Positions 1,794 to 61,239 of a DNA stretch of 64,000 nucleotides are shown here, in pieces. A program made the position numbers and the translations under genes. Each line of letters opens with the position of its first letter. Positions within the stretch are counted from its first letter, which is position 1. Origin of the DNA: Planctomycetaceae bacterium (GTDB lineage Bacteria > Planctomycetota > Planctomycetia > Pirellulales > UBA1268); the NCBI GenBank assembly GCA_947449135.1, contig CANFQO010000003.1, positions 1-64,000 on the forward strand, written 5' to 3'. Below the pieces are notes generated by a model. The model saw nothing but the letters and a program-made list of their open reading frames with translations. It had not been told where the DNA came from and did no database searches.

Positions 1794-3323
<1,530 letters not shown>

Positions 3324-3340
<17 letters not shown>

Positions 3341-36813: not shown

Positions 36814-37962
36814 ATGCGCTTCACGGCTCTCATTTTTCGTAACGTCGCCCGCAGGTGGTTTCGCACCACGATGACCCTGCTGGCGCTCGCGACCGCAATG
36901 GCCGCGATTGTCGCCCTGCAGGGCATCGCCAACGGCTTTCAGCGTTCGTTTGCCGATGTTTACGATGCCCACGCGGTCGACATCGTGGTCTCCCGGCAAG
37001 GGTCTGCGGACAGGTTGAGCAGCTCGCTCGACGCCGGCGTCGTTGCGCGGATCGTCGGCCTCCCCGCCGTCGATCGGGCCGCAGGCGTGCTTCTCGACAC
37101 GTTATCGCTCGAGAAGGAGGGCGTGTATGGCATTCCCACGATGGGGATCGTGCCAGACTCGTGGCTACTCGACGACTACACCACCGTGTCACCGGGCGGC
37201 TCAGCGTTGGCGGCAAGGTTGGAATTCACAGGCGCCCGCGAGGTGATGGTCGGACAGAATCTCGCCAGCCGTCTGAAAGTCAGGCCGCACGATGAGCTGA
37301 CGCTATTCGATGAACAGTACCGCGTTGCAGGCATCTTCCGTAGCCCCAGCGTGTGGGAAAACGGCTCGCTGATCATGCCGCTCGAGACGCTTCAGCGGAT
37401 TGCGGACCGCAATGGTCAGGTCACCTACGTCAACGTGGTTCTGCGCCGTCCCTTCGCCATCGGCGGCCTGCCGGCAGCGATCGAAGGCATTCATGGGCTC
37501 GACCCCCGGCTGCTGGCGATGGCAACAGGCGACTTCGTGAAGACCGACACCCGCATGAAGCTGGCCGAGGCGATGGCATGGATGACATCGATCGTGGCAA
37601 TGGTCATCGGCGCGATCGGCACTCTCAACACGATGATGATGAGCGTCCACGAGCGCACGAAGGAGATCGGTATTCTTCGCGCGATCGGCTGGCCGCGGCG
37701 GCGGGTCGTAGGAATGATCCTGCTTGAATCGTGCGGCCTAGCAATCGGTGCCGCAATCCTGGGGGCAATCGCGGCGATCTGCCTGACATATCTCCTGAGC
37801 AGAGCCCCCGCTGCCAGCGGCATTCTCACACCAGTGATCGACGCAGCGATCCTGCTGCGTGGCTTCCTCATCGCGATGGGGATCGGATTACTGGGGGCTT
37901 GGCTCCCGGCTTGGCGTGCGGCACGGCTGCTCCCCACCGAGGCATTCCGCGAACAACAGTGA
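36814..37962 (+). CDS. ABC transporter permease, FtsX/MacB type
   Basis: A 382-residue permease. One N-terminal helix (TTMTLLALATAMAAIVALQG) is followed by a MacB_PCD-like periplasmic domain of about 200 residues, and then three helices with the FtsX signature: MTSIVAMVIGAIGTLNTMMM, SVHERTKEIGILRAIGWPRRRV and the last two helices to ILLRGFLIAMGIGLLGAWLP. The ERTxEIGxLRAxG coupling segment contacts the ATPase. Its start is 31 bases before nothing else; the next gene is the megasynthase, 31 bases downstream on the same strand, so they share a transcript. The matching ATPase is at 48773-49477. Role inferred: export of the product or of a lipid form of it. Confidence 0.85.
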   Translation: MRFTALIFRNVARRWFRTTMTLLALATAMAAIVALQGIANGFQRSFADVYDAHAVDIVVSRQGSADRLSSSLDAGVVARIVGLPAVDRAAGVLLDTLSLEKEGVYGIPTMGIVPDSWLLDDYTTVSPGGSALAARLEFTGAREVMVGQNLASRLKVRPHDELTLFDEQYRVAGIFRSPSVWENGSLIMPLETLQRIADRNGQVTYVNVVLRRPFAIGGLPAAIEGIHGLDPRLLAMATGDFVKTDTRMKLAEAMAWMTSIVAMVIGAIGTLNTMMMSVHERTKEIGILRAIGWPRRRVVGMILLESCGLAIGAAILGAIAAICLTYLLSRAPAASGILTPVIDAAILLRGFLIAMGIGLLGAWLPAWRAARLLPTEAFREQQ

Positions 37963-37993
37963 TTGAACTGCGAGACGGCACGAAGGACGACTG

Positions 37994-40900
37994 ATGATCA
38001 TCAGAGACGGCATGAACGGCAGCCTTCCGGAAAGGCATCATGACCAGCAAACGGCGGCGGCACTGCCGCCGCTGGCGATCGTGGGGATCGGTTGCCGCTT
38101 TCCCGGTGGCGTCGAGGACTGGCCGTCGTTCTGGCAGGTGCTAGACGAGGGCCGCGACGTCGTCGTGGAGACCCCGGAGGAACGCTGGAGCCATCGCAAG
38201 TTTTACCGATCCGGCAGGGCCCGCCCCGGCAAGACGCAGAGCCGCTGGGGCGGCCATGTGTCGGGCATTGACGATTTCGATCCGCAGTTCTTCGGCATCT
38301 CGCCCCGTGAGGCGGCCGGCATGGATCCGCAGCAGCGGATGCTCCTTGAGGTGGCGTGGCGGGCGATCGAGGATTCGGGCCACGATGCCCGCCGGCTCGC
38401 CGGACAGCCAGTCGCCGTTTTTGTCGGTATTTCCAGCTTTGACCACGCGGTGGCCACGCTGAGCTTCCAGGATCGGGGCGTCGTGGATGCCTACAGCAAC
38501 ACCGGTGGCTCATCCAGCATCGCCGCCAACCGCATTTCCTACTGCTTCGACCTGCGTGGCCCGAGCGTGGCCGTCGACACGGCGTGCTCGTCATCGTTGG
38601 TGGCCGTGCATCTGGCCTGCGAGTCGATCCACCGCGGCGAAAGCCGGATGGCGCTGGCGGGCGGCGTCAACGCGCTGCTCATGCCCGACTTCTCGGTGGC
38701 GTTCAGCCAGCTCGGCGTGCTGTCGCCAGACGGACGTTGCAAGACGTTTGATTCGCGGGCCAACGGCTACGTCCGCAGCGAAGGGGCGGGGATGGTGCTC
38801 ATCAGGCCGCTCGCTGACGCCGTTCGGGACGGCGATCTGGTCTATGCCGTGATTCGCGGGACAGCCCTCAATCAGGACGGCCGCACGCCGGGCCTCACCG
38901 TTCCCAGCCAGGCGGCGCAGGAGGCACTCGTTCGCGAGGCGTGCCGCCGGGCGGGCGTCGATCCGACCGACATTCAGTATGTCGAGGCGCACGGCACAGG
39001 CACGCCCGTCGGAGATCCCATCGAGGCCAACGCTCTCGGGGCCGTGCTTGGCGCGGGCCGGCCGGCCGACCGCCCCTGCTGGATCGGCTCGGTGAAAACC
39101 AACATCGGCCACCTGGAGGCGGCGGCAGGCATCGCCAGCCTCATCAAGGTGTCGCTTGCCATGCACCACCGCAGAATCCCGGCCCACCTTCACTTCCGTG
39201 AAGCCAATCCAGCGATCGACTTCGAGCGGCTGAAGTTGAGGGTGCCCACCGCATCGGTGGATTGGCCCGACGCCGTGCCACGGATCGCCGGGATCAATGG
39301 CTTCGGCTACGGAGGCGCCAACGCCCACGTGCTTGTCGGGGAGCCGCCTGCTCTCGCCGCCGCCCCAGCTGCGGCGCCGCCGGAACCGTCGCCCGCGGTG
39401 GTGCCGCTGTCCGCCCGCAATCGCCGGGGCATCTCTGCCTTCGCCAACCGCCTCTCCGACTCGCTTGCAGACGAGGGCGACCACCGGCTCACGGACCTGA
39501 GTCTCAGCGACATCGCCGCTTTCATGGCGCATCACCGCAGCGGCGACGAGGCACGGGCGGCGGTGGTCGCACAGGATCGCGAGGACCTCGTGGTGAAGCT
39601 GCGGGCTCTTGCCGGAACGGCCATGGACGACGCTTCAACCCGCAGAGACGCGGCCATTCAGGCTGCCGACATCGCCTTCGTCTTCAGCGGCCAAGGACCG
39701 CAGTGGTGGGGCATGGGCCGCCGACTGCTCACAGCGAGTCGGGTATTTCGCGGCGTGATCGAGCGTTGCGATGCGGAGTTCGCCCGTCTCGGCACCTGGT
39801 CGCTCGTGAAGGAACTCGCGCGCGATGAATCCACGTCGCGAATGAAGGAAACCAGGATCGCACAGCCTGCGATCTTCGCCATTCAGGCCGGCCTGGCAGC
39901 CGTCTGGGCGCACTGGGGGATTCGCCCCGCGTTGTGCGTCGGTCACAGCGTTGGTGAGATCGCCGCGGCACATGTTGCCGGGGCGCTCTCGCTCGAAGAT
40001 GCCTGTCTCGTCGCCTACCATCGTGGACGGACGATGGATCTCGCGTCGTCGCGCGGCGCGATGATCGCAGTCGGCCTCTCCCGCGAGGAACTCAAGCCGT
40101 GGCTCGTGGGCTACGATCGCGATGTCTCCATCGCAGCCATCAACGGCCCGACCTCCATCACGCTTTCGGGCACCGCGACGGTGATTGACGGCCTCGCAAC
40201 CCGGCTCGAGGCGGCGGGCCTGTTCTGCCGCCGGCTCGCCGTCGAATACGCGTTCCACAGTCCGCTGATGGATCCGGTGCGCGGGACCTTGCTGGCATCC
40301 CTGGCCCCGGTGCAACCACGGGCGGCTACGGTGCCCTTCCTTTCGACGGTTACCGGTGAGGCGTGCAGCGGCCGGGAACTGGACGGCGACTACTGGTGGC
40401 GGAACGTCCGGCACTCGGTCCTTTTCGCCGACGCGATGCGGTACCTCGCCATACGAAATGTGCGGGTGGTCCTGGAGATCGGCCCGCATCCGGTGCTGGC
40501 CTTTGCCATCAACGAGTGCTTTCAGGCGGCGGGCCGATCGGTCGAAACCTTGCCGTCACTCCAACGCGATCGCGACGATATGGAGTGCCTGTTGGGGAGT
40601 ATCGGCCGACTCTATGGCCTCGGCCTCGACATCGACTGGTCGCGGATCCATCCGCGGCCCAGCCGCCGACTGCCGATCCCACCGCAGCCCTTCCACCTGC
40701 AGCGGCTCCGCAACGAGTCGCGGGAGGCCCGCGACTCGCGATATGCCATTGATCCTCACCCGCTGTTGGGCGAACCCGCCGACGGTCCCACACCCCGGTG
40801 GCAGTGCCGCATCGACCTGCGGCTTCAGTCCTACCTCCGCGACCACCTCGTCCGCGGCTTCTGCCTCCATCCAGCCGCCGGCTTCGTCGAGGGGGCGATC

Positions 40901-43900
40901 GCCGCCGCGCGGCAGCTTGCTGATGAAGGAGTCGAGACCGTCCGACTCCAACGGCTGCAGCTGCAGAAAGCCTGCATCCACGCAGAGGACTCACCGCAGT
41001 GGATGGAATGCCACTACCGCCCAGACCGCCGCAGCCTCATGTTTGCCCAACGCAGTGTCGACGACAGCGACTGGAACCAGCTGGCGACCGTTGGGATCGC
41101 CGCCGATTCCAACGCGGCGGCCTGGCCCACGGAATCGCTCGCCGCGGTTCGCCGCCGCTGCACGGAGTCGTTCGACCGCGAGCGTCTTTACGCCTACTGT
41201 CTGAAGCTGGGGCTTGCCTACGGCGAGCAGTTCCAGGGCCTCGTCTCCGGGGTGCGCAGACGTGGCGAGAGCCTCGGCGAGGCGGTACTTGCTCCGCAGC
41301 TCGGCGAGGAGGCGGAGGATTACTGCATCCACCCTGCTCTCCTCGACAGCTGCTTTCACGCGATGATCGCCGCCGACATTGATTTCGACCATACCGTTCC
41401 CGGCCTATTCCTGCCCCACGAGATTCGCGAGATCCGGTTCCACGCCCGGCCCGGCAGCCGCGCCACGGTGCACGCCCGGATTGTCTCCCGGATCGGCGAC
41501 CAGATGGAGGCCGACCTCGACATCTTCGACGTCGACGGCAGGCCATGCCTGTCGATCCGCGGGTTTGTCAGCCACCTCGTGGCGGGATCGCATCCGACGG
41601 AATCGGTCGCCGATTTGGTCTACCGGTTGGACTGGGTCCGGCAGGAACTGCCACGACTCGAGCCGGCAACCGACGGTGAGACGTCGCCTGCTGCGGCGGT
41701 CGCCAAACCATCAGCTCCCCCAGGAGCAGCAGGCCACTGGCTCGTGTTTCGCGATGACGGCGGACTCGGCGACGCACTCGCGGGAGCGTTGGCCGCCGAT
41801 GGTGACGCCGTCACGCTCGTGCGTCGAGGCACACGGTTCGCCGCCGGGGACGATGGCGGATTTACGGTCGATCCCGACAACCGGGGTGACTTCGTGCGGC
41901 TCCTCGAGGCGGCTCGCGACCGAGCCGCCGGGATGGGCACCGGACTGATCTATCTCTGGGGATTGGACGCAGCGCCGATCGCGGCCCTCACCACCGACGC
42001 TCTCAATGCCAGCACGCTCCTGACCTGCCGCAGCCCGCTGCACCTCGTTCAGGCATGGGAGCAAGCCGGTCCGGCAGCTGCCGCCCCCTGCTTCGTCGTG
42101 ACGTCGGCCGCTCAGGCGGCCGACGGGTACCCCGCACGCGTCGAGGTCGCCCAAACGCCACTGATCGGCATGGGACGCGTGATGGCGAGCGAATACGGTC
42201 GCTGGCGAACGCGACTGGTCGACCTGCCGCCGGACGCGGTGACCGAATTGACTTCGCTCGTCGCCGAACTCCGGCACAACAATGGCGAGGATGAGGTACT
42301 CCTGCGGCGCGGCGAGCGGTGGGTGAGGCGGTTCTATCCATATCGCGAGCTCGCAGCCTGCCCCGCCGCGGTCGCCGCCCTTCCCTCACGGCTTGAAGTT
42401 TCCGCTTCGGCCGGGATCGAGGATCTCGACTACAGGCTCTACGATCCTGCAGCGATCGAGCCGGACGAGGTCGAAATTGAGGTCCGCGCCACCGGCCTCA
42501 ACTTCAGCGATGTCATGAAGGCCCTCGATCTCTATCCAGGATTGCCGCCGGGCCCCGTCTCGCTGGGCAGCGAGTGTTCCGGAACCATCAGCCGCGTCGG
42601 GACTAAAGTGACGGAGTGGCAAGTCGGCGACGACGTGATCGCCGTCGCCCCTGGCGCCTTTAGCACGCACGTGGTCGCGCGGGCATCGCTCGTGGCTCGC
42701 AAGCCCCGCAATCTCTCCCACGAGGAGGCAGCCGCTGTTCCCATCGCCTTCTTGACCGCGGCGCACGCTCTTCATGAATGTGGGCGGATCCGTGCCGGCG
42801 AGTCGATCCTCATCCATGCCGCCAGTGGCGGCGTGGGGCTGGCCGCGATCCAACTGGCACAGTCTGCAGGTGCACGGATCCTCGCCACGGCCGGCAGTGA
42901 TGAGAAACGCGACTTCGTCCGCCGCCAGGGTGCCGAACACGTCATGGATTCCCGCAGCATGGCATTCGCAGACGAAACCCTGCGGGTCACTGGCCGCGGC
43001 GTCGACGTGGTGTTGAACAGCCTGCCGGGCGAGGCGATTCCGCGGGGCATCGCGGCGCTCGCCCCGGGCGGCCGTTTTCTCGAGATTGGTAAGCGCGACA
43101 TCTACGACGACGCGGCACTCGGGCTGCATGCCTTCCGCAATAACATTGCCTTCTTCGCGATCGACCTTGACCAACTCTTCAAACAGCAGCCGGAGCGGAT
43201 GGGCAGCCTCCTGCGATCGCTTCCAGTGCGATTCGAGTCGGGCGAACTCAGGCCGTTGCCTGTGACCGTTCACCCGGCCGGCGACACGGTCGCCGCGTTT
43301 CGCTCGATGCAGCAGGCAAGGCACATTGGCAAAATCGTGATCAGCTACCCGACTCGTCCGGCCGATGCCAGGCCCGCTGACACCGGCCGCGTCCACTGCG
43401 ATCGTCAAGGCACCTACTGGGTAGCGGGGGGCCTCGGTGGCTTCGGCCTCGAAGTCGCCCGCTGGCTCGCCGCCCAGGGTGCGGGAACACTGGTGCTCGG
43501 CGGTCGAAGCGACACGGTGCCAACCGCAGCCACGGCAGTAATCGACGAGATCACCCGCGGTGGCACCAGGGTCTGCCTGATGCCGGCCGACATCTCCCGA
43601 GCCGACGAGGTTCGCTGCGTGCTCGACCAGATTGTTGCCGAGTTGCCACCGCTGAAGGGCATCTTTCACACGGCGATGGTGCTTGAGGACAAGCTGCTCG
43701 TTGACATGGACGAAACGACACTGGAACGAGTGCTGCGGCCGAAGGTCCTTGGCGGGTGGAACCTTCATCGAGAGTCGCTGGGACTGGCCCTCGATCACTT
43801 CGTGCTCTTCTCCTCCCTGTCGAGCATCTTCGGGCATGCAGGCCAGGCAAACTACGCAGCTGCCAATGCCGCACTCGACGGGATCGCCCATGAGCGCCGT

Positions 43901-46900
43901 GCGCTCGGTCTGCCGGCGACGGTCATCAACTGGGGCCATTTGGGCGAGGTCGGCTATCTCGCACAGCGTGACGACTTGAGCGCACGGCTAGAGCGGCAGG
44001 GCGTGCTCAGCTTCACGGTGCGGCAGGCGACCGAATGCCTCGCCTACGCGATCTCGTCGCACGAGCCGCAGCTGAGCGTGCTTCGGATGGATTGGACGCT
44101 GTGGCGAGGGCTCGGAATCACCGACCACGTGCCGCCGAAATTCGCGCACCTCCTGCGCTCGACCACAGGTGCCGGTGAGGCCGGCACACTCGGGGTTTTA
44201 TCGCCGACGGCGATCGTCGCCGCGGCACCCGCGGAGCGGCGGCTGCTCGTCGAGCGAGCAGTCCGCGTCAAGTCAGCTGCTCTGCTCGGAATCGGTGCGG
44301 CTGACCTCGAGGCCTCCCGGCCCCTCCTGGAACTGGGGCTGGATTCGCTGATGGCGGTGGAGCTCCGCAACTGGATCGAGAACCAGATCGGCGTCGGACT
44401 GCCAATCTCAGCATTGATGCGGAGCGCTGGGATCGATTGCCTCGTGGAATCCATCTGTGCTGCCGTGGTGGCCGAAGGAGACGTTGCGGCTCCGATCATT
44501 CCAATCAACGCCACGTCGACGGCTGAGCGGGAGTTCCCCATGTCGGCGGGCCAGCGCGGGCTCTGGTATGCCTACCGACGCGATCCGAACAGTACGCCGT
44601 ACAACGTTTTTCTGCCCACACGGGTTCGGTCGTCGCTTGATACCGATGCCCTGCGTCGCACGATGGAACTGATCGTCGAGCGGCATCCGTCGCTGCGCAC
44701 GACCTTTTCCGATGAGCGGGGCCATCTGCTCCAGCACGTCCATGCCGCGCTCCCACCGGAGTTTGCCCTGGTGGATGCCGTCGGCAGGAATCTCGATGAG
44801 ATCCGCGACGAGTTGATGGCCGATGCCGCCAGACCATTTGATCTGGAGCACGGGCCCCTCCTGCGCATCACCGTCTACCGCGTCGCACCGGATGATTGGC
44901 TCATTCTCGCGACCACGCACCACATCGTCGTTGACTTCTGGTCGCTCATTCTCATCCTCGACGAGGTCGGCCGCATCTACCCGCGGCTTTCTGTGGGTGA
45001 GGATCCGGGACTACCAGCTGCCTCTGGCAATTACTCGGAATTTGTCCGCCGCCAGGATGCGCTGCTGGCGGACGACAGGGGCGGCGAGTGCAAACGGTAT
45101 TGGGCGGGCGAGCTCGACGGGCTGCCCACCGTGCTCGAGATTCCGACCGACCGAATACGGCCGCGGAGCTTCACGGGGCGTTCCGACACCGTCGCCCTCG
45201 GGCTGCCGGCGGACATCGTGGCGGGCATCACCCGCTTGGCGACCACGGAGAGGGTCACGCCGTCGGCCGTGGTGCTCGCGGCAGTGCAGGTGCTCATCAG
45301 TCGCTACTCGGGCCGAAAGTCGTTCGTCATCGGCACGCCGTTCTCCGGTCGCAGCCAGCAGCGGTTCGAGAGAACGGTCGGGTTCTTCGTCAACATGCTC
45401 CCGATCCCAGCCCGGCTGGATGACGCGCCGACCTTCGCCGAGCTCGTCGGCAGGGTGGGCGCGACGCTCGTGGGCGCCCTGGAACACGAGGACTATCCGC
45501 TCGCAGCGATCGTGCAGGACATCGCCCCGGACCGTGATCCGAGCCGCAGCCCGCTCATCCAGATCTCCTGCACATTCGAGAAATCACACCTTCGCGAGGA
45601 GTCAGGCCGGGCCGGCTTCCTATTCCCAGACCAGGCCGAAGCGGCCATCCTTGGCGGCCTGCAACAGGAGAGCTTTCATGTTCCGCAAAAGACGTGCCTT
45701 TACGACATCGAATTTGTCTTCGAGCAGACCGATGACTCGCTGCGCGGCATGATTGTCTTCTGCCGCGACATCTTCACAGCCGACTCGATGCAGTGGATGG
45801 CACGCAATTTCGAATCGCTCCTTGCGGTGCTGGTGCAGGCAGATCGCACGCCCATTGACCGGATTCCGTGGCCGCAGACCGACACGCTGCTGGCCGACAT
45901 GACGATGCCCCTCGCTACCGGGGATGCACGGACGCTGGCCGATCTCCTCATGCCCGTGATCGAGCGATCACCCCGTCAGCCGGCGATCGTCGGCGACGGT
46001 ATGCAGTGGGACTACGGTCAGTTGGGCGAGCATTGCCGGGGCATCGCCGCAGAACTCGTCGCTGCGGGAGTTGGCACAGGAAGCCTGGTGCCCGTTGTCG
46101 GCCATGGCGCTCACGCCTTCGTGGGAACCGTGGCCACGATTCTCTGCGGTGCCGCAGCAGTTCCGATCGATTCCCGTCAGCCTGCCGTAAGCTGGGAGAC
46201 CCTTCTCGAGGATACAGCCGCCTCTGCGGCGGTGGTGGCGGGTGGTGGCGACTGGCTCGACGCGGCGGCCACCACGGACGATGGAAACGTGAGGCGGATT
46301 GATGTCGAAGCGGCACGCGGGACAGGTTCCACAGAGACCACGCAGACGCTCGGTGTCGGCGCGCAGCCCGATGGCCTCGCCTACTGCATCTTCACCAGCG
46401 GTTCGACGGGCCGTCCAAAGGGCGTGCTCGTCGAGCACAGGGCCATCGTCAACACACTCACATGGCGTCGGCAGGCGGTTCCACTGAGCAGCGAAGACCG
46501 CGTGCTGCTGCTCTTCTCGCCGCAATTCGATGCCGCGCTGGGCATCGCGCTCACCACGCTCTCCCAGGGCGGCACGCTCGTGATGGCCGATGACCGCGCA
46601 ACGAGTGACGTAGCGTGCTTGATCGATCAGGTGATCCGCGATCGGATCACTATCCTGCCGGCCGTGCCCGCCCTGTTGCAACTCGTGACGGCTCATCCCA
46701 GGTTCATGGAGTGCCTGTCCCTGCGTCATATCTGGGCGGGCGGAGAGGCGATGCCGCCGGAGTTGCCGTCGCTCGTGTCTCGGCTCCCGGGCGTGCACTT
46801 GTGGAACTTCTACGGTCCCACGGAAGCCGCCGTCGAGGCAGCGGCCTGTGCGGTGATTGCCTCAGGAGCCGGCCCGCGTGTGGGTCGTGACCCGACCCGC

Positions 46901-48658
46901 CACATCCCCATCGGCAGCCCCGTGGCCAATACGACACTCACGATCCTCGACGAAGCACTCCGTCCCGTGCCGGATACCGTGCCCGGTGAACTGGCGATCG
47001 CCGGTCCGGGCCTGGCACGCGGCTATCTCAAACGGCCCGATCTCACCGCCGCTCGGTTCCCATCGCTCGCGGACGGACACGGCCCGCGGATCTATCTGAC
47101 GGGCGATCGCTGCCGCAGGCTGGCCGACGGACAGTTCGAGTATCTCGGCCGGCTCGACGATCAGGTGAAGCTCCGTGGCTACCGGATTGAACTCGGCGAG
47201 ATCGAGAGCTGCCTGCGAATGCACCCAGCCGTGGCCGGGGTGGCCGCGAAGGTGATCGCACGCGACACGCCACAGGCCCGGCTGGCGGCCTTCGTGGTCC
47301 TAGCGACGCAGCCACGGCCGGTCGACGACGCCGACGAGGAGGTGCTCGCAGCCGACCTTCGCAGCTGGGTGGCCGAACGTATTGCGGTCTACAAGGTGCC
47401 GGCGGCCGTCGTGTTCATCGATGCACTGCCACTCTCGGCGGGCGGCAAGATTGACCGCTCGCGGCTCCCCGACGCGCTTCCGGGAGCCGTCGGATCCGGG
47501 GGGCTCGTACCGCCGGCAACGCCGCTGGAGCAGCATCTGGCCGACGTCTGGTCGCTCACGCTCGACATCGTCAACGTCGGCGTGCACCAGAACTTCTTCG
47601 ATCTGGGTGGAACATCGCTGCAGGCGGCGATGCTGACAGCTCGTTTGAGTGATCACCTCGGCGTGCATGTCCCGACGGCATTGCTGTTCGACCTGGCCGA
47701 TATCGCTCAGATCGCAAAGCGGCTCGTGCAGCTTCATCGCCCGGAGATAGAGGCCCGCTTTGGGAGCGAATCAGTGACCGCCTACGATCATGAGTCACCG
47801 TCAATGGATGGAGCCCATCCGGCGGCGGACGGCAGCCATCCGCTCCTGGTACCGCTCAAGCCCACGGGCGATCTCACGCCGGTCTTCATGATCCATCCGC
47901 CGGGCGGTGTCGTCGTCTGCTATCGCGAACTGGCGAGGCTGATCGATCCGTCGCGGCCGCTCTATGGCGTGCGTTCCCGCGGCCTACACGGCGTTGAGGC
48001 GATGCCGGAAAGCCTTGAGGCGATGGCGGCGGAATACGTCGACGCAATTCGCTCCAAGCAGCCAGAGGGCCCCTACCTGCTGGGCGGCTGGTCATTGGGT
48101 GGCGTCATGGCTGGCGAGGTGGCACGGCAACTGATCGCCGCGGGCGAGGCGGTTGAACGGCTGCTCCTACTCGACTCGGCGCTCCCTGAGTCCGCGCTGC
48201 CGGAGGACGCCGTCGGCGACCAGTTCCGAGCGGGGCTCGAGTATGGCATCAATGTCGATCTCGAGGACCTCAGCCGCATGAGCCCAGAGGAGCAACTACC
48301 CTTCCTCTGGCAGCACGCGCGCCAGCTCGGAATGCTCGATGCACAGGCGCCGGAGCAGCTCGTCACGAGGGTAATTTCCGATCTGAAGACACTCTTCTCC
48401 CATCATGTCGCACTGTGCGAACGCTATCGTCCGCGCCCCGTACCCGTTGATGCAGTGCTCTTCCGCCCCCGGGAAGTGCCGTTCGACGTGGGTGGCCCCG
48501 AAGATCGCGGCTGGGGACAGTTCATGCGGTCGGTCGAGGTCTGCAGGGTCGCCGGCCATCACCACAGCATGGTGGCGATGCCGCACGTGCGGGAGTTGGC
48601 CGCCGTGATCACCGGAGTGCTGGCCGAGCCTGTCGAAGCCAACATCACAGCACGTTGA
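37994..48658 (+). CDS. Hybrid type I PKS-NRPS megasynthase with thioesterase
   Basis: A 3554-residue synthase. KS, about 25-445: DTACSSS with Cys198, EAHGTGT with His333, NIGHLEAA with His373. AT, 558-860: GHSVGE Ser652 and YAFHS, which suggests malonyl-CoA. DH, 920-1195: HLVRGFCLHP His951, DSCFH Asp1118. Non-catalytic KR-like region, 1245-1430. ER, 1470-1785: HAASGGVGLAAIQ. KR, 1805-2030: GGLGGFG, and YAAAN. ACP: GLDSL Ser2118. C, 2180-2620: HHIVVDF, His2310, Asp2314. A, 2660-3160: FTSGSTGRPKG, YGPTE, LSAGGKIDR. PCP: GGTSL Ser3208. TE: GWSLGG Ser3367, GHHHS 3521-3525. All catalytic residues are present. No loading module is seen. Predicted: one fully reduced two-carbon extension of an acyl starter, amide bond to one amino acid, release by TE. 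Confidence 0.93.
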   Translation: MIIRDGMNGSLPERHHDQQTAAALPPLAIVGIGCRFPGGVEDWPSFWQVLDEGRDVVVETPEERWSHRKFYRSGRARPGKTQSRWGGHVSGIDDFDPQFFGISPREAAGMDPQQRMLLEVAWRAIEDSGHDARRLAGQPVAVFVGISSFDHAVATLSFQDRGVVDAYSNTGGSSSIAANRISYCFDLRGPSVAVDTACSSSLVAVHLACESIHRGESRMALAGGVNALLMPDFSVAFSQLGVLSPDGRCKTFDSRANGYVRSEGAGMVLIRPLADAVRDGDLVYAVIRGTALNQDGRTPGLTVPSQAAQEALVREACRRAGVDPTDIQYVEAHGTGTPVGDPIEANALGAVLGAGRPADRPCWIGSVKTNIGHLEAAAGIASLIKVSLAMHHRRIPAHLHFREANPAIDFERLKLRVPTASVDWPDAVPRIAGINGFGYGGANAHVLVGEPPALAAAPAAAPPEPSPAVVPLSARNRRGISAFANRLSDSLADEGDHRLTDLSLSDIAAFMAHHRSGDEARAAVVAQDREDLVVKLRALAGTAMDDASTRRDAAIQAADIAFVFSGQGPQWWGMGRRLLTASRVFRGVIERCDAEFARLGTWSLVKELARDESTSRMKETRIAQPAIFAIQAGLAAVWAHWGIRPALCVGHSVGEIAAAHVAGALSLEDACLVAYHRGRTMDLASSRGAMIAVGLSREELKPWLVGYDRDVSIAAINGPTSITLSGTATVIDGLATRLEAAGLFCRRLAVEYAFHSPLMDPVRGTLLASLAPVQPRAATVPFLSTVTGEACSGRELDGDYWWRNVRHSVLFADAMRYLAIRNVRVVLEIGPHPVLAFAINECFQAAGRSVETLPSLQRDRDDMECLLGSIGRLYGLGLDIDWSRIHPRPSRRLPIPPQPFHLQRLRNESREARDSRYAIDPHPLLGEPADGPTPRWQCRIDLRLQSYLRDHLVRGFCLHPAAGFVEGAIAAARQLADEGVETVRLQRLQLQKACIHAEDSPQWMECHYRPDRRSLMFAQRSVDDSDWNQLATVGIAADSNAAAWPTESLAAVRRRCTESFDRERLYAYCLKLGLAYGEQFQGLVSGVRRRGESLGEAVLAPQLGEEAEDYCIHPALLDSCFHAMIAADIDFDHTVPGLFLPHEIREIRFHARPGSRATVHARIVSRIGDQMEADLDIFDVDGRPCLSIRGFVSHLVAGSHPTESVADLVYRLDWVRQELPRLEPATDGETSPAAAVAKPSAPPGAAGHWLVFRDDGGLGDALAGALAADGDAVTLVRRGTRFAAGDDGGFTVDPDNRGDFVRLLEAARDRAAGMGTGLIYLWGLDAAPIAALTTDALNASTLLTCRSPLHLVQAWEQAGPAAAAPCFVVTSAAQAADGYPARVEVAQTPLIGMGRVMASEYGRWRTRLVDLPPDAVTELTSLVAELRHNNGEDEVLLRRGERWVRRFYPYRELAACPAAVAALPSRLEVSASAGIEDLDYRLYDPAAIEPDEVEIEVRATGLNFSDVMKALDLYPGLPPGPVSLGSECSGTISRVGTKVTEWQVGDDVIAVAPGAFSTHVVARASLVARKPRNLSHEEAAAVPIAFLTAAHALHECGRIRAGESILIHAASGGVGLAAIQLAQSAGARILATAGSDEKRDFVRRQGAEHVMDSRSMAFADETLRVTGRGVDVVLNSLPGEAIPRGIAALAPGGRFLEIGKRDIYDDAALGLHAFRNNIAFFAIDLDQLFKQQPERMGSLLRSLPVRFESGELRPLPVTVHPAGDTVAAFRSMQQARHIGKIVISYPTRPADARPADTGRVHCDRQGTYWVAGGLGGFGLEVARWLAAQGAGTLVLGGRSDTVPTAATAVIDEITRGGTRVCLMPADISRADEVRCVLDQIVAELPPLKGIFHTAMVLEDKLLVDMDETTLERVLRPKVLGGWNLHRESLGLALDHFVLFSSLSSIFGHAGQANYAAANAALDGIAHERRALGLPATVINWGHLGEVGYLAQRDDLSARLERQGVLSFTVRQATECLAYAISSHEPQLSVLRMDWTLWRGLGITDHVPPKFAHLLRSTTGAGEAGTLGVLSPTAIVAAAPAERRLLVERAVRVKSAALLGIGAADLEASRPLLELGLDSLMAVELRNWIENQIGVGLPISALMRSAGIDCLVESICAAVVAEGDVAAPIIPINATSTAEREFPMSAGQRGLWYAYRRDPNSTPYNVFLPTRVRSSLDTDALRRTMELIVERHPSLRTTFSDERGHLLQHVHAALPPEFALVDAVGRNLDEIRDELMADAARPFDLEHGPLLRITVYRVAPDDWLILATTHHIVVDFWSLILILDEVGRIYPRLSVGEDPGLPAASGNYSEFVRRQDALLADDRGGECKRYWAGELDGLPTVLEIPTDRIRPRSFTGRSDTVALGLPADIVAGITRLATTERVTPSAVVLAAVQVLISRYSGRKSFVIGTPFSGRSQQRFERTVGFFVNMLPIPARLDDAPTFAELVGRVGATLVGALEHEDYPLAAIVQDIAPDRDPSRSPLIQISCTFEKSHLREESGRAGFLFPDQAEAAILGGLQQESFHVPQKTCLYDIEFVFEQTDDSLRGMIVFCRDIFTADSMQWMARNFESLLAVLVQADRTPIDRIPWPQTDTLLADMTMPLATGDARTLADLLMPVIERSPRQPAIVGDGMQWDYGQLGEHCRGIAAELVAAGVGTGSLVPVVGHGAHAFVGTVATILCGAAAVPIDSRQPAVSWETLLEDTAASAAVVAGGGDWLDAAATTDDGNVRRIDVEAARGTGSTETTQTLGVGAQPDGLAYCIFTSGSTGRPKGVLVEHRAIVNTLTWRRQAVPLSSEDRVLLLFSPQFDAALGIALTTLSQGGTLVMADDRATSDVACLIDQVIRDRITILPAVPALLQLVTAHPRFMECLSLRHIWAGGEAMPPELPSLVSRLPGVHLWNFYGPTEAAVEAAACAVIASGAGPRVGRDPTRHIPIGSPVANTTLTILDEALRPVPDTVPGELAIAGPGLARGYLKRPDLTAARFPSLADGHGPRIYLTGDRCRRLADGQFEYLGRLDDQVKLRGYRIELGEIESCLRMHPAVAGVAAKVIARDTPQARLAAFVVLATQPRPVDDADEEVLAADLRSWVAERIAVYKVPAAVVFIDALPLSAGGKIDRSRLPDALPGAVGSGGLVPPATPLEQHLADVWSLTLDIVNVGVHQNFFDLGGTSLQAAMLTARLSDHLGVHVPTALLFDLADIAQIAKRLVQLHRPEIEARFGSESVTAYDHESPSMDGAHPAADGSHPLLVPLKPTGDLTPVFMIHPPGGVVVCYRELARLIDPSRPLYGVRSRGLHGVEAMPESLEAMAAEYVDAIRSKQPEGPYLLGGWSLGGVMAGEVARQLIAAGEAVERLLLLDSALPESALPEDAVGDQFRAGLEYGINVDLEDLSRMSPEEQLPFLWQHARQLGMLDAQAPEQLVTRVISDLKTLFSHHVALCERYRPRPVPVDAVLFRPREVPFDVGGPEDRGWGQFMRSVEVCRVAGHHHSMVAMPHVRELAAVITGVLAEPVEANITAR

Positions 48659-48772
48659 ACCGATCGCACGGGCGTTAGACGCGATGCCTGTCAGCCGTAT
48701 CTTCCTGAAGTCCAGTGGCGTGTCAGGCTTCCGTCGACCTTTTCGTTTCCTGTTCCCGACATGCCTGACTCG

Positions 48773-49477
48773 CTAGCCGTTCGGAACGTCCTTGGTAATC
48801 CGCCCATCGAGCATGCGTATCGTACGGCCAGCCCGCGCGGCGACAGCGGCGTCGTGCGTAACAACGACGAGCGTCGTGCCCCGCTCGACGCGGAGCATGC
48901 CGAGGAGATCCATCACCTCGCCGCCGCTCTTGCTATCGAGGCTGCCCGTGGGCTCATCGGCGAGAATGAGTGCCGGACCATTCGCCAACGCCCGCGCGAT
49001 CGCCACCCGCTGACGCTGCCCGATCGAGAGTTGGCCTGGCATGTGATCGGCGCGGTCCGCCAAACCAACGAGCCTGAGCAGCTTGTCTGCCTGTGCCACC
49101 CGGGCTTCGTCCGACTGTCCGTCACCGAACATCGGCACCTGCACGTTCTCACGCGCGGTCAGATTGGGCAGTAAATAGAACGTCTGGAACACGAACCCGA
49201 TCTCACGGGACCGCAACCGATCGATATCCTCGACGCCCGACAGCGGCGTGCCATGAAAGCGAACCTCGCCGGAGGTGGGCGTGTCGAGCGCACCGATCAT
49301 GTGCAGGAGAGTCGATTTGCCGCATCCGCTGGGACCTACGATCGAAACGAACTGTCCCGCTAGAATCTCCAGACTAACACAGTCGAGCGCCCGTACGTTT
49401 CCATCGCGGTAGGTCTTTGTGACGTTGTGTAGGGCCACCAACGGCGGGACACCTGTTGAGACGTAGCTTGATTCCAT
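48773..49477 (-). CDS. ABC transporter ATP-binding protein, LolD/MacB type
   Basis: A 234-residue ATPase. Walker A is GPSGCGKST, the Q-loop FVFQTF, the signature LSIGQRQRVAIARAL (Ile in place of the first Gly of LSGGQ), Walker B LILADEPTG with SLDSKSG as D-loop, and the switch His is in VTHDAA. The ATG at 49477 follows AAGGG; the longer frame beyond it has no family features. The subfamily pairs with FtsX/MacB permeases, which fits the permease at 36814. It is convergent with the megasynthase, so permease and ATPase are made from opposite strands 11 kb apart. Confidence 0.9.
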   Translation of the reverse strand: MESSYVSTGVPPLVALHNVTKTYRDGNVRALDCVSLEILAGQFVSIVGPSGCGKSTLLHMIGALDTPTSGEVRFHGTPLSGVEDIDRLRSREIGFVFQTFYLLPNLTARENVQVPMFGDGQSDEARVAQADKLLRLVGLADRADHMPGQLSIGQRQRVAIARALANGPALILADEPTGSLDSKSGGEVMDLLGMLRVERGTTLVVVTHDAAVAARAGRTIRMLDGRITKDVPNG

Positions 49478-49531
49478 GATGCCCTTTCTGGAATATGTCT
49501 TGCCGAGAACGGCGACGCACTGGAGCAGCAT

Positions 49532-50497
49532 ATGTTCCCGCACGAGGGAAATCCGCACGCGACGGAATGTCTGCTCCGAACCGATGGTCGGCAGCCGTCT
49601 GTGACGTCGACGCTGATCCTCGCCATGCTCATGACGACGGCTGCGGCAACACCGCCGGCGGCCAGCGCCGCCGATCCCGATCCGGCGGCGACCTGCCGTC
49701 CGCTGAAGGTCGTGCCGCCAGACACGTCCGTGGACAATCCGGACGGGAGTCGCTGGAACCGCGTGGTCCTGCTGGCTGCGCCACGAATCGCCAGCGGTGA
49801 CACCGAGGCCGTTTCGCAGGTCATTCGGCAGCGAGTCTCCCAATTCACGCTCGCGTTGCTCGCGACCGTTCGGAAGACAACTGGACCTGCGGGCGGCACA
49901 CGGCACGAACTCGCCGAACTTGGTGTTGGATACGCGGTACCCATGGATGGCCGGCTGACCATCGTGGCCACCGACAATCCTCCGCCAAGCGCCGGGATCG
50001 ATTTTCTCGGCCGGCAGATCCTCGCGGAGAACGGACGCACCCTCGCCAATCTGACCTGCGTCGGCACTTCCGACACCGCTCAGGTCTTCGACGCTGAGGC
50101 GATCCTGTTCCGTCGTGGCACCCATCTCGATTTTCTGATGCGACACTTTGTCTGGGTGGAGCCCGTCTCGGGGCAGTGTTCGGCCTGCGTCTGGCTGCTC
50201 ACCAGGCGCGCAGACGGCAGCTTGGTTGTGGTCGAGGAGCCGATCCACTGGATCAGTCCCGGAACCCGGGAGGATCGTGCGGTCCACGTGGACTCAAGCG
50301 AGTTTCTGTTCGGCATTCCCACCAAGCGATCCCTCGCGCTCGTCGACATCCCACCGGGGCAGGCCCTGGAATGGTCGCCCGGCCTCCGCGCCATCGCGGC
50401 AGAGAAACACTATCCGCTTCAGGCACTCCAGACACTGGCGGTGGCATTGGATCACAGCCTGCAGACATTGCGGGCACCGCAATCAGCTGACCGGTAG
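49532..50497 (+). CDS. Secreted protein of unknown function
   Basis: A 321-residue protein, family not recognised. After a 25-residue polar leader there is a signal-like stretch VTSTLILAMLMTTAAATPPAASA before ADPDPAATC. The mature part has RWNRVVLLAAPRIASGDTE, SQFTLALLATVRK, DAEAILFRRGTHLDFLMRHFVWV and SGQCSACVWLLTRRADGS with a CxxC. It is divergent from the ABC ATPase by 54 bases and convergent with the phosphopantetheinyl transferase, so it sits inside the biosynthetic cluster. A role as extracytoplasmic partner of the exporter is a guess; it has no adaptor (HlyD-like) coiled coils. Confidence 0.6.
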   Translation: MFPHEGNPHATECLLRTDGRQPSVTSTLILAMLMTTAAATPPAASAADPDPAATCRPLKVVPPDTSVDNPDGSRWNRVVLLAAPRIASGDTEAVSQVIRQRVSQFTLALLATVRKTTGPAGGTRHELAELGVGYAVPMDGRLTIVATDNPPPSAGIDFLGRQILAENGRTLANLTCVGTSDTAQVFDAEAILFRRGTHLDFLMRHFVWVEPVSGQCSACVWLLTRRADGSLVVVEEPIHWISPGTREDRAVHVDSSEFLFGIPTKRSLALVDIPPGQALEWSPGLRAIAAEKHYPLQALQTLAVALDHSLQTLRAPQSADR

Positions 50498-50523
50498 CAG
50501 CCGTGGAGAAGCACACCGGCCGA

Positions 50524-51477
50524 TTAGCCGAATCCGACGCCACCGTGCACAGCTTGATCGAAAGTCGTGTAGGTAAGGCGGCAGTCTAACGCATGGCAGG
50601 CAACCGCCACGAATGCGTTCGCGTCACCGGAGAGCAGGCCGACCCCCAGTCCGTCGCCGGCCGTGCCGTCGAGGGGTGTGGGGGCCGATCCGAGCGATTC
50701 TGCTGCGACGCTACTGAGCCGCGTGTCGATGGCCTCCCGCTCCGACGGAAGCGCGATCCGCGCCAGCGGCACCGGCAGCGGTAGATGTCGCAGGCCACCA
50801 CTAATCCCGCGACCGCACGCCTTGAGGATCGCCTCCTTGACGACCCAGTGTTCAAGCAGTGCCGCGGGCTTGAGCGGATCGGCAAGGCAGCGCCACCGTT
50901 GCAGTTCATCTGCCTCGAGGATCGAGTCGGCCATCATCGCGGCCCACTGCGGCGTGTGGGATGGCGACGGGAGTTCGAGGTCGATGCCCACGGGTGATTC
51001 CCGTGAGAAGGCCACCAGACCGCGATCGCGGGAATGGGTGAGGTTGAAATGACACCTGCCAGCAAGGTGGCCACCGAGCGCGGGCTTGCCGTAACTGCCG
51101 ACGCGAAGATCGATCGACTCGGCCGGCTCTTCGACGAAGCGTGATAGGAGGAGTCGCAACCGCCCCCGCCCAACGACAAACCGCCTCCGCACCTCGGGAA
51201 CGCACCGTTCGGCCCGGATCCGCTCCATGGCCGAGAGTAACCGCTCCAGATCCGCCACGTCTCCATCCGTGGCGACGAGCGATAGCGCGACGACGGTCAC
51301 GCCCACACCGCCCTCGGGTGGCTGCGGGCACCGTGGCAAGGCATCACAAGCAGGCATGCGGGGCAATCCAGGCAGAATGCGAGCAGGCAGAGCGGATAGG
51401 GGCTTCGCGGGCGATGCGGCGGACGGTGAGAGCCCGTTGGCTTTGTGCTGCCCGATGGGCGTAGAGGATTCGACCAT
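50524..51477 (-). CDS. Sfp-type 4'-phosphopantetheinyl transferase
   Basis: Up to 317 residues. Adds the phosphopantetheine arm from CoA to Ser of carrier domains, here most likely Ser2118 and Ser3208 of the megasynthase. Motifs: GSYGKPAL, HFNLTHSRDRGLVAFS, VGIDLE (Mg-binding D and E) and HWVVKEAILKACGRGI (the WxxKEAxxK motif). The ATG at 51477 gives a long N-terminus; a start at the Met of MPACDALPRC would give about 276 residues, closer to the usual Sfp size. It is 1 kb past the ABC ATPase and in the same orientation, divergent from the SppA-like gene. Confidence 0.88.
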   Translation of the reverse strand: MVESSTPIGQHKANGLSPSAASPAKPLSALPARILPGLPRMPACDALPRCPQPPEGGVGVTVVALSLVATDGDVADLERLLSAMERIRAERCVPEVRRRFVVGRGRLRLLLSRFVEEPAESIDLRVGSYGKPALGGHLAGRCHFNLTHSRDRGLVAFSRESPVGIDLELPSPSHTPQWAAMMADSILEADELQRWRCLADPLKPAALLEHWVVKEAILKACGRGISGGLRHLPLPVPLARIALPSEREAIDTRLSSVAAESLGSAPTPLDGTAGDGLGVGLLSGDANAFVAVACHALDCRLTYTTFDQAVHGGVGFG

Positions 51478-51535
51478 GTGAAGTGTCGATCAGCACCAGG
51501 GACGAACGTATACCACTTACGAGGGGGCCCTCCTT

Positions 51536-52645
51536 ATGCGGCGATCGGCTTGGCTCCTGATCGCGATCGGGCTTGTGTTGGGCTTGGCTGGCGGGTGCCG
51601 GTCGAAGCCGATGCAGGTCTGCATGAACGGTGACATGGACATGAACGGCGACATGGCGATGACCGGCTCCATGAACATGACTGGCGACCTTGGCATGTCG
51701 GGCACCATCGTCACGTCGATGAAGACCGACAATCGGGCGTCGCGACTGGCGGCAGTGGCAATCGGCAAGGGCTCCGCACAGTGCGGGAAGCTGGCGATTG
51801 TTGATATCGACGGCCTCCTGCTCAACCGCAACATGGGCGGATTTGGTTCGATGGGCGAAAATCCGGTGGCCCTGTTTCGTGAGAAGCTCGACGCCCTCGA
51901 GTCCGATCCGCAGATCGCGGCTGTGGTGCTCCGCATCAACAGCCCCGGAGGTGGCGTCACGGCCTCCGACATCATGGCCCGCGATCTGCGGCAGTTTTGT
52001 GACCGGAAGAACATCCCGGTGGTCGCCTGCCTGATGGACGTCGGCGCCGGTGGAGGCTACTTGCTGGCATCGGCTGCCGACGTAATCGTGGCCCACCCGA
52101 CGACCATCGTGGGGGGCCTTGGCGTGATTCTCAACAGCTACAACCTGCAGGAAACGATGGGCCAGTTCAACGTCGTGGCCCGCCCCATCAAGTCAGGCAA
52201 GAAGGTCGATGCCGCATCGCCCGCGCGTCCGCTGGAGCCGGAGGAGCTTGAGATGCTGCAGTCTTTGGCAACAGGCTTTCACTCGCGGCTCAAACAACAG
52301 ATTCACGACGCGAGGCCACTGGTCGCGGAGGAAGCCGATATCTTCGACGGCCGGGTGATCGCCGGCGATCAGGCTGCGGCGGTAGGACTCGTCGACCGCC
52401 TTGGTTATCTCGACGATGCCCTCGCCGAGGCCAGAACCCTCGCCAAGCTCGGACCGGAATCGAGCGTCGTCATGCTGCGCCGCGACAACGACCGGGCCTA
52501 CACGCAGTTCGACGTCACGCCGAACATCGCCCAACAGACCGCGGTAGTGCCGCTGAATGTTCCGGGCCTCGACCGCAGTCAGCTGCCGACCTTTCTCTAT
52601 ATCTGGCAGCCTGAGACGAGCCTGACCACCGCGTCGGGCGGGTGA
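51536..52645 (+). CDS. SppA/ClpP-fold lipoprotein lacking the catalytic Ser
   Basis: A 369-residue lipoprotein: WLLIAIGLVLGLAGGC is a lipobox signal with lipidated Cys21. Residues 26-57 are Met/Asn/Gly/Asp repeats. The rest is an S49 (SppA-like) crotonase/ClpP fold: AAVVLRINSPGGGVTASDIM, VGAGGGYLLASAADVIVAHP, TIVGGLGVIL and IKSGKKVDAASP. In active SppA the third motif is AASGGYY with the nucleophile Ser; here the aligned residues are Ala171-Gly172-Gly-Gly-Tyr, so the Ser is Gly172. The Lys motif is kept. It is probably not a normal serine protease; perhaps a binding or scaffold role. SD GAGG lies nine bases upstream. Confidence 0.8.
   Translation: MRRSAWLLIAIGLVLGLAGGCRSKPMQVCMNGDMDMNGDMAMTGSMNMTGDLGMSGTIVTSMKTDNRASRLAAVAIGKGSAQCGKLAIVDIDGLLLNRNMGGFGSMGENPVALFREKLDALESDPQIAAVVLRINSPGGGVTASDIMARDLRQFCDRKNIPVVACLMDVGAGGGYLLASAADVIVAHPTTIVGGLGVILNSYNLQETMGQFNVVARPIKSGKKVDAASPARPLEPEELEMLQSLATGFHSRLKQQIHDARPLVAEEADIFDGRVIAGDQAAAVGLVDRLGYLDDALAEARTLAKLGPESSVVMLRRDNDRAYTQFDVTPNIAQQTAVVPLNVPGLDRSQLPTFLYIWQPETSLTTASGG
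51623..51703 (+). repeat. Met-rich short tandem repeat in lipoprotein gene
   Basis: About five imperfect 12-21 base repeats encoding variations of M-N-G-D-M and M-T-G-S-M, starting just after the lipid-anchor Cys. Met-rich runs in exported proteins can bind Cu(I), but Asp-containing spacers here make that only a possibility. Confidence 0.5.
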
Positions 52646-52658
52646 AATGGCCGACATC

Positions 52659-53582
52659 TCAGCGGCCGGCGGCCAATTTGCGGCGGAGGACACGGACGCC
52701 TTCCTGCGATGTCAGCGGGATTTTCGACCGCAGCAAGTTGCTCCCCTGAAACCAAGCTTCGGGTTCGCAGATCACCATCCGTGATTCGACAACGAGCACG
52801 TCGCCAGAACCGCCTTCGGCTGCAAGCTTCCTCACGGTGACGACACCGCCGCAGCCCTTGTAGGGCTGCGGCTCGCCCTCGATCCGGCCACCGAGCTCGT
52901 TCTCTTCGATCCTCGTCCAGGTCGCCCGCCACCGGGGCTCATTTCCGAATCGCGGGTCGAACTCCCAGGCCACCTGCACACCATCGGGCGTTTCATGCTT
53001 CTCGGCCCGAACCACCCCGCGCACCTTGACCCGGTTGAGCAGCGGGACCTCGACGAAGAGAAATTGCTCATGGCCCGACCCATCGGGCTCGATGCCGACC
53101 GCCGAAAGGTCCGCGGCCGCAAGCGGTTTCGCTGTCGCCCCCTTGGAGTCCTCCTCCAAGCCAAACGTCTTCTTCACGGCCTCCTCCCCCTGTACTTTCT
53201 CAAGCGCCGCATGAAGCACAAACGCCGTCCGCACGCGATGGCCCAGCCGCCTGTCCCCTGCAGTCACCGCTTCGATCACCACGGTCACGGGCGCCGTGAC
53301 CGCATCCTCGACGAAACGGTCCCAGCCGGCGACGCCAGCCAACTCATGCAGAGATTGCTCGTCGTCACCAACGCCGAGGCGGACAAGAGCCGTGGGCAAC
53401 GGTGACCACACGCCTTCCGCCACCTCCACGCCGTGTTCCGTCAGGATGGCTGCAAGGTCCGTCCGGTCTGCGGTCGCCGGTTCGGCATGGCAGCATGCCT
53501 GACGATCGCACCATGCCGTGCCGATCAGCAGGCTGGCCCAGAGCAGTGCCCGGCCCCACGGTGGTTGCGATCGAACGTACAC
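52659..53582 (-). CDS. Secreted protein of unknown function
   Basis: A 307-residue exported protein with no family I recognise. The signal peptide is ALLWASLLIGTAWC with cysteines soon after (CDRQACCHAEP). The mature protein begins TDLAAILTEHGVEVAEGVWSP, and continues VEDAVTAPVTVVIEAVTAGDRRLGHRVRTAFVLH, a helical part with Lys/Glu (EKVQGEEAVKKTFG), then a beta-rich half (FLFVEVPLLNRVKVRGVVRAEK, GVQVAWEFDPRFGNEPRWRATW). It ends in LRSKIPLTSQEGVRVLRRKL. It is convergent with the SppA-like gene with a 13-base gap, and lies upstream in the order of nothing obvious. Confidence 0.6.
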   Translation of the reverse strand: MYVRSQPPWGRALLWASLLIGTAWCDRQACCHAEPATADRTDLAAILTEHGVEVAEGVWSPLPTALVRLGVGDDEQSLHELAGVAGWDRFVEDAVTAPVTVVIEAVTAGDRRLGHRVRTAFVLHAALEKVQGEEAVKKTFGLEEDSKGATAKPLAAADLSAVGIEPDGSGHEQFLFVEVPLLNRVKVRGVVRAEKHETPDGVQVAWEFDPRFGNEPRWRATWTRIEENELGGRIEGEPQPYKGCGGVVTVRKLAAEGGSGDVLVVESRMVICEPEAWFQGSNLLRSKIPLTSQEGVRVLRRKLAAGR

Positions 53583-56627: not shown

Positions 56628-56720
56628 ATGCCTATAACCCTCGCCATAGCCACCGTCGTCGCTGTTCTGCTGGCGGCGTACCTCGTGGTGGCCATGCTCG
56701 CCCCGGAGAGGTTTGGCTGA
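56628..56720 (+). CDS. kdpF: KdpF, small subunit of potassium-ATPase
   Basis: A 30-residue single-helix peptide (MPITLAIATVVAVLLAAYL then VVAMLAPERFG). The PERF/LAPERFG end is the KdpF signature. KdpF stabilises the KdpFABC complex in the membrane. Its TGA overlaps the kdpA ATG in TGATG, which fits translational coupling. The 217-base spacer upstream, shared with the divergent DUF1080 gene, must hold the kdp promoter; no operator could be named. Confidence 0.9.
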   Translation: MPITLAIATVVAVLLAAYLVVAMLAPERFG

Positions 56721-60579: not shown

Positions 60580-61229
60580 TGCCAGCTCCCTCGAAGAATC
60601 CCAGCCCCCCGGGGCTCGCCGCGGTCCTGATCGCCCAAGTGCGTCCGGCATGCACCCTGCTCCTGGCCCTCGCCCTGATCACCGGCGTGCTGTATCCCCT
60701 TGGCATGACCGTCGCGATCCAAACGCTGTTTCCACGACAGGCCGGCGGCAGCCCACTGCGGGATGCCGAGGGCGTTGTCCGCGGCTCCGCGCTCATCGGC
60801 CAGCCATTCAACGCACCGCAGTGGTTTCATGGCCGACCGAGCTCTACAGGCAATGCCCCGTATGACCCGACCGCGTCGGGCGGTTCAAACCTCGGGCCGA
60901 CGAATCCCGCCCTGGCTAGAGCCGTTCGCGAGCGGGCAGACGCCCTGACGCAGGGCAACCCCGGCCATGCCGGCTCGATCCCCATCGATCTCGTCACCGC
61001 CAGCGGCAGCGGACTTGATCCGCACATCTCGCCGCCGGCGGCACTCCTGCAGGTGCCACGCGTCGCCGCCGCCCACGGGGTCGATGAGTCAGCCGTACGA
61101 CAGCTGGTGGCGCAGCATGTCGAACCGGCCGTGTTGGGCATCTTTGGCCGTCCGAGGGTGAACGTGCTGCAGTTGAATCTCGCGCTGGAATCGATCCCCC
61201 GCAACACTGAAGTCTCCCAACGGAAATAA
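60579..61229 (+). CDS. kdpC: Potassium-transporting ATPase subunit C
   Basis: A 216-residue subunit with one N-terminal helix (ACTLLLALALITGVLYPLGM) and the conserved exported part: QAGGSPLRDAEGVVRGSALIGQPF, PQWFHGRPSS, SGGSNLGPTNPALARAV, VTASGSGLDPHISPPAALLQV and RVAAAHGVDESAVRQLV. It starts on kdpB's stop (TGATG) and ends 10 bases before kdpD. Assists K+ transfer in the Kdp complex. Confidence 0.96.
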   Translation: MPAPSKNPSPPGLAAVLIAQVRPACTLLLALALITGVLYPLGMTVAIQTLFPRQAGGSPLRDAEGVVRGSALIGQPFNAPQWFHGRPSSTGNAPYDPTASGGSNLGPTNPALARAVRERADALTQGNPGHAGSIPIDLVTASGSGLDPHISPPAALLQVPRVAAAHGVDESAVRQLVAQHVEPAVLGIFGRPRVNVLQLNLALESIPRNTEVSQRK

Positions 61230-61239
61230 GTCCGCCACG

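Follow-up and report, generated by a model that had tools for sequence, protein, structure and literature searches.

What does a planctomycete make with a single protein in which one polyketide synthase (PKS) module runs into one nonribosomal peptide synthetase (NRPS) module, and is the transporter encoded beside it meant for the product? Such a locus lies in the window, as we call the whole analyzed stretch of 64,000 nucleotides.

Gene arrangement of the locus

An earlier note had placed five genes in a compact cluster at 36814–51477. All five were found where it put them. The cluster is, however, longer than proposed, since the conserved block extends over 36814–53582 and includes two further genes, for an S49 lipoprotein and a second predicted secreted protein (called c52659 below).

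36814–37962, plus strand: FtsX/MacB-type permease (Pfam MacB_PCD and FtsX; copies in six relatives)
37994–48658, plus strand: PKS-NRPS synthase of 3,554 amino acids, KS-AT-DH-ER-KR-ACP-C-A-PCP-TE (Pfam domains and motifs)
48773–49477, minus strand: LolD/MacB/DevA-like ABC ATPase, convergent with the synthase gene
49532–50497, plus strand: predicted secreted protein of unassigned function, "secr" (conserved family without Pfam or PDB match)
50524–51306, minus strand: Sfp-type phosphopantetheinyl transferase (PPTase; PF01648, HetI-like, alignment to relatives), with the reading frame opening at 51477
51536–52645, plus strand: SppA-like (S49) predicted lipoprotein that has lost both catalytic residues (Gly172, Val224; lipobox Cys21)
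52659–53582, minus strand: c52659, the cassette's other predicted secreted protein (found beside PKS-NRPS and acyl-AMP-ligase/NRPS loci)

The PPTase frame opens at 51477, but homology to its relatives begins only about 58 residues inside, so that the real start probably lies near 51306. The distance of 31 bases from the permease to the synthase, given in the earlier note, is exact. The ATPase and secr genes are divergent from each other, and because the ATPase and PPTase genes lie on the strand opposite to the synthase, the locus is not one operon.

The earlier note had proposed a look at the synteny of the permease, ATPase, secreted protein and PPTase in relatives. The order, with permease and synthase facing forward, the ATPase reversed, secr forward, the PPTase reversed, the S49 gene forward and c52659 reversed, is kept in six relatives from the window's family as far as their contigs reach (G016, G037 on two contigs including L102, G039, G043, G051 and G061), and the arrangement is therefore not due to chance. 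The synthases of these six relatives are 58–71% identical to that of the window, and the permeases directly 5′ of them 62–78%. The locus is patchy within the family, occurring in 7 of about 72 genomes. The synthase gene of G051 (L047, G051:C58, 15366–15451) is broken inside the AT domain into two frames that overlap, owing perhaps to an error of sequencing or to decay of the gene.

Outside the block, a single reading frame at 33594–35459 encodes a glutaminase, a STAS domain and a cyclic-nucleotide-binding domain as one fusion. Within 56720–63195, KdpA, the one member checked there, is followed by frames whose sizes would fit the remaining genes of a potassium-ATPase operon and a sensor.

Domain composition of the synthase

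The synthase frame is uninterrupted, and all ten domains attributed to it were recovered in the order claimed, each with its active-site motifs. With KS-AT-DH-ER-KR-ACP and C-A-PCP-TE in succession on one polypeptide and with intact motifs, the protein is a hybrid type I PKS-NRPS, and the earlier description, a single synthase equipped to make a reduced acyl chain and add one amino acid, holds for the complete domain set.

38069–39196, plus strand: KS, residues 26–401 (DTACSS, VEAHGTGT, KTNIGH; KS tree)
39677–40609, plus strand: AT, residues 562–872 (GHSVGE and YAFH; predicted malonyl-type)
40757–41587, plus strand: DH, residues 922–1198 (HxxxGxxxxP and DSCFH)
42461–43342, plus strand: ER, residues 1490–1783 (Pfam and motifs)
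43409–43942, plus strand: KR, residues 1806–1983 (Pfam and motifs)
44270–44461, plus strand: ACP, residues 2093–2156 (GLDSL)
44525–45859, plus strand: condensation domain, residues 2178–2622 (HHIVVDFWS)
45962–47449, plus strand: adenylation domain, residues 2657–3152 (ten-residue code DAGPWGFVEK)
47537–47725, plus strand: PCP, residues 3182–3244 (LGGTSL)
47879–48553, plus strand: type I thioesterase, residues about 3296–3520 (GWSLGG)

There is a single PKS module without a loading domain. The AT motifs GHSVGE and YAFH presumably indicate malonyl specificity, and Pfam matched no methyltransferase domain in the synthase; from both we predict that the chain is unbranched and reduced.

Alignment to the LgrA adenylation domain gave the ten-residue code of the A domain, DAGPWGFVEK, which is not known to correspond to any signature and does not occur as a string in the literature searched. 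It is conserved as DAGPWG[FCL][VI]EK in all seven copies from the window's family (f1).

Relatives of the synthase were searched with its first 2,900 residues. In the assembly to which the window belongs (3.7 Mb; completeness 96%), this query found no second PKS-NRPS or modular PKS. The same assembly yielded two PPTase matches, the one in the locus and a 139-amino-acid AcpS-like protein. The former, with 41.6 bits to PF01648 (cut-off 25) and about 250 residues in two lobes, is distinct from AcpS and by its sequence of the Sfp type. That the line has its own PPTase, as had been claimed, stands in so far as this is the sole Sfp-type enzyme found in the assembly and its gene is linked to the line in the window's family and to some acyl-AMP-ligase/NRPS loci, but no such gene was seen beside the two-gene PKS/NRPS loci examined (see below).

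Permease and ATPase as a predicted split ABC pair

The permease has about four membrane spans (hydropathy peaks at residues 20–38, 250–278, 309–327 and 341–359), with a periplasmic core domain of about 200 residues behind the first. Among named families its best scores are LolCE-like. The FtsX/MacB_PCD permease together with a LolD-like ATPase resembles the type VII ABC systems LolCDE, MacAB-TolC and DevBCA, but scores lie far below the LolCE, MacB and DevA cut-offs: the permease reached 69 bits against the lolCE model (cut-off 362), and the ATPase 221 bits against the LolD model (cut-off 308). Unlike in those systems, the two genes are separate and flank a synthase, and no membrane-fusion or TolC gene is present. 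The absence of a membrane-fusion protein of the MacAB/DevBCA kind from the genes of the locus had been noted earlier; matches to the membrane-fusion-type HlyD_D23 domain in the window's genome sit on other contigs.

Members of the permease family also occur without any synthase (e.g. L095, L104, L119 and L130), and the family is hence not a dedicated PKS-NRPS part. In the window's genome we found no second close permease, the next match scoring 73 bits compared with 600.

Linkage of the permease to one clade of synthases

Close members of the permease profile were found in 78 of the 397 genomes of the order. In the large-genome family f15, the permease lies directly 5′ of a PKS (KS-AT-DH-ER-KR-ACP), which is followed by a separate C-A-PCP-TE protein, the same termination as in the window. 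A gene for an inactive S49 lipoprotein lies divergently on the other side of the permease or nearby. The adenylation codes of f15 are largely conserved as well, mostly DAG[PVA]WG[FC][VI]EK with L161 and L165 deviating. The KS domains of these two-gene loci are 67–75% identical to that of the window, compared with 49–57% for stand-alone PKSs. The f15 loci differ from the window in having two proteins, except in G353, where the fused one-protein form is found too, in the lack of an adjacent PPTase in the loci found, and in the variable presence of the ATPase and secr: among about 12 loci with downstream sequence, the ATPase gene lies behind the NRPS gene, facing it, in four and is followed by secr as in the window in two, the two genes otherwise not being adjacent. 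What might have seemed special to this genome is thus a one-protein version of a line that, outside the window's family, usually consists of two genes.

Because the f15 loci had first been found via the permease, we searched the same 397 genomes anew with the KS-AT region alone. Setting membership at 56% identity over KS-AT, or, for fragmented matches, at 60–77% over shorter segments, we obtained a KS clade of 26 loci from 25 genomes. Family f15 contributes eighteen, among them two identical copies in G365, while f1 contributes seven and f7 one. The locus of G273 begins at a contig end and was left out of the upstream count. An intact permease gene lies immediately upstream in 24 of the 25 loci readable there; in the remaining one, G263, a permease remnant of about 88 residues precedes an intact clade PKS (L177, G263:C155, 5786–6049). 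The link between permease and synthase in the earlier proposal of export by a split ABC system is hence genuine, and this linkage suggests the transport.

In the KS tree, the permease-linked sequences including the window's KS form one group (support 100/96), with f1 and f15 separate inside. This pattern is in keeping with vertical descent with loss. Less similar synthases (46–50%) lack the cassette, apart from one 46%-identical PKS in G263, which lies on another contig of that genome beside a full permease and an S49 gene. Homologous synthases lacking the transporter, which the earlier note would have counted against the proposal, do exist: PKS-NRPSs of f12, 35% identical, have no cassette. 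These lie outside the KS clade, however, and carry the adenylation code DILQLGVVWK, which resembles a glycine signature, instead of the window's code.

The same cassette beside acyl-AMP-ligase NRPS lines

In two other families, f2 and f19, the permease adjoins an acyl-AMP ligase-ACP protein and NRPS proteins ending in a TE. The ligase combines an AMP-binding with a DIP2-like C-terminal domain, the pattern of fatty acyl-AMP ligases (FAAL), and S49, PPTase, ATPase, secr and c52659 genes accompany it in various combinations. As in the window, cassette genes thus flank a lipid-initiated NRPS with TE; unlike there, the chain is activated by an acyl-AMP ligase, and often there are two modules with an epimerase-like domain. 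At L089, a single FAAL-ACP-C-A-PCP-TE protein is followed by a secr gene; judged by its domains, this protein would be the functional counterpart of the window's line, with a ligase instead of the PKS.

We considered whether the PKS had merely taken the place of a FAAL starter in front of a C-A-PCP-TE part that was inherited, but the tree of C domains gives this no support, as the window-type C domain does not group with those of the FAAL lines. Since the C domains of both kinds of line are not specifically related, the cassette and not the synthase is the common element. Its occurrence beside FAAL-NRPS lines, the strongest clue to the cargo, suggests that an acylated amino acid or a very short acylated peptide is carried time and again. 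The putative export cassette would then be common to two different routes to an acylated amino acid.

An inactive SppA-like lipoprotein and two secreted proteins

Using PDB alignments, we compared the S49 protein with Bacillus subtilis SppA, whose catalytic pair is Ser147 and Lys199. In the window's protein, the position of the serine nucleophile is Gly172 and that of the lysine base Val224. Throughout 28 distinct cassette copies, drawn from f1, f2, f7, f15 and f19, the serine position is Gly and the lysine position Val or Ile, and the lipobox Cys (Cys21 in the window) is conserved. The long SppA of the window's own genome retains its serine. Lacking these residues in all copies, the cassette protein is not an active S49 peptidase; by its sequence it is a conserved, non-catalytic predicted lipoprotein, a feature new here. 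A peptidase fold without its catalytic residues beside a presumed lipid exporter is an unexpected order-wide feature that suggests a structural role and has apparently not been examined before. In the window's family, its N-terminus carries a Met/Asp/Gly-rich near-repeat (MNGDMDMNGDMAMTGSMNMTGDLGMSGT).

SppA enzymes assemble into rings. On this basis one may imagine that the inactive lipoprotein has acquired a new role in the periplasm, where it would form a ring or a platform for docking and stand in for the missing membrane-fusion protein, so that ring, permease and the two secreted proteins would form an unrecognized export route for lipo-amino acids across the planctomycete envelope. We regard this idea as speculative and rather improbable.

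For secr, neither Pfam nor PDB gave a match. Its AlphaFold2 model has a confident core, but no fold in the PDB matched it significantly (best E 0.06), and this includes a few START-like folds among the structure matches. The model of c52659 is poor (pLDDT 49), and Pfam and NCBIfam returned no match for this protein. The c52659 family, which adjoins PKS-NRPS and FAAL-NRPS loci, has a strongly conserved C-terminal stretch, EPxxWFxGxNLLRxKxPLxxQ. That secr and c52659 are distant paralogues was rejected after a negative profile comparison. Paralogues of secr without a nearby synthase or permease were seen at L097–L101 (G000:C32, G001:C28, G042:C130, G019:C217 and G026:C17); a second secr-type copy in the window's own genome is among them.

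Predicted product and alternative explanations

Taken together, these data make it reasonably likely that the locus serves the synthesis and export of an N-acyl amino acid (lipo-amino acid). The PPTase would arm ACP and PCP, and the single highly reducing PKS module would provide the ACP with an unbranched acyl chain that is saturated or almost so. The module most likely acts by iteration, the alternative being that it extends a preformed fatty acyl primer by a single, fully reduced unit. The C domain would couple this chain to a single amino acid, which the A domain activates and the PCP carries, and the TE would release the acyl-amino acid. The type VII ABC pair of permease and LolD-like ATPase would then take the amphiphile out of the inner membrane and hand it to periplasmic partners, namely secr, c52659 and the inactive SppA-like lipoprotein. 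The enzymatic steps follow from domain knowledge and the intact motifs, and the transport is suggested by linkage; chain length, iteration, the amino acid, the direction and the cargo of the transport and what the three envelope proteins do are predictions. The concrete expectation is a product of one acyl chain and one amino acid, released by a TE; it may serve as envelope lipid, surfactant, signal or antibiotic.

Permease, ATPase and envelope proteins might instead be a general lipoprotein- or lipid-sorting system whose cargo is not the synthase product. In several genomes the permease family does occur without a PKS or NRPS, often in the order permease-ATPase-permease, and the LolCE-like scores point in the same direction. 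We nevertheless consider such a system unlikely, because the KS clade lies directly downstream of a permease in almost every readable locus, the same cassette stands independently beside FAAL-NRPS lines, and the window's genome has no other close permease. Quite unlikely, too, is the release of a cyclic product such as a tetramate, a lactone or a similar bioactive metabolite, with the ABC pair serving self-protection and not routine export. PKS-NRPS hybrids elsewhere yield tetramates and MacB-like pumps can confer resistance, but the line ends in a type I TE with a GxSxG motif and not in a Dieckmann or reductase release domain, and it has its cassette in common with FAAL lines of the lipopeptide type. 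Vertical descent with loss across families would fit a housekeeping-like lipid and an antibiotic equally well.

The earlier note had also been reminded of heterocyst-glycolipid loci, where a long hydroxylated PKS chain is made for an envelope glycolipid layer and exported by a DevBCA-like system. The hglEA/D/C/B set, devBCA and the export of heterocyst glycolipids by DevBCA have been described (PMC8064123). With regard to the separate parts the likeness stands: a reducing PKS, a HetI-like PPTase, a DevA-like ATPase and an FtsX-type permease occur together as in the hglEA-D-C-B, HetI and DevBCA system. It is superficial, however, with scores far below the curated cut-offs (85 bits for the PPTase against the HetI model, cut-off 370; DevA likewise well below). 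The window's line has an NRPS module and ends in C-A-PCP-TE, with no thioester reductase of the HglB kind there, and the locus contains neither a glycosyltransferase nor a DevB-like membrane-fusion gene. We therefore disfavor a heterocyst-glycolipid-like function as very improbable.

Relation to described planctomycete loci

Planctomycete PKS and NRPS loci have been catalogued and are mostly unassigned (PMC13241502; PMC4982196). One class of them, mostly counted so far, can now be tied to a defined cassette with a predicted role in export. In the literature searched, which covered few subscription journals, no product or function of the permease-linked line is described, an absence that is weak evidence. 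An N-acyl amino acid would fall into the same class as the stieleriacines of the same phylum, which are made with NasY enzymes (PMC12479983) and not by a PKS-NRPS line. A "bimodular NRPS-PKS" is mentioned for Rhodopirellula baltica (Donadio et al. 2007, as cited in PMC4982196); we would guess that this is perhaps the two-gene line of f15. Finally, two public records titled Candidatus Kuenenia stuttgartiensis (L107 and L108) carry the locus and group with a Pirellulales-like family, so that their titles look misassigned.
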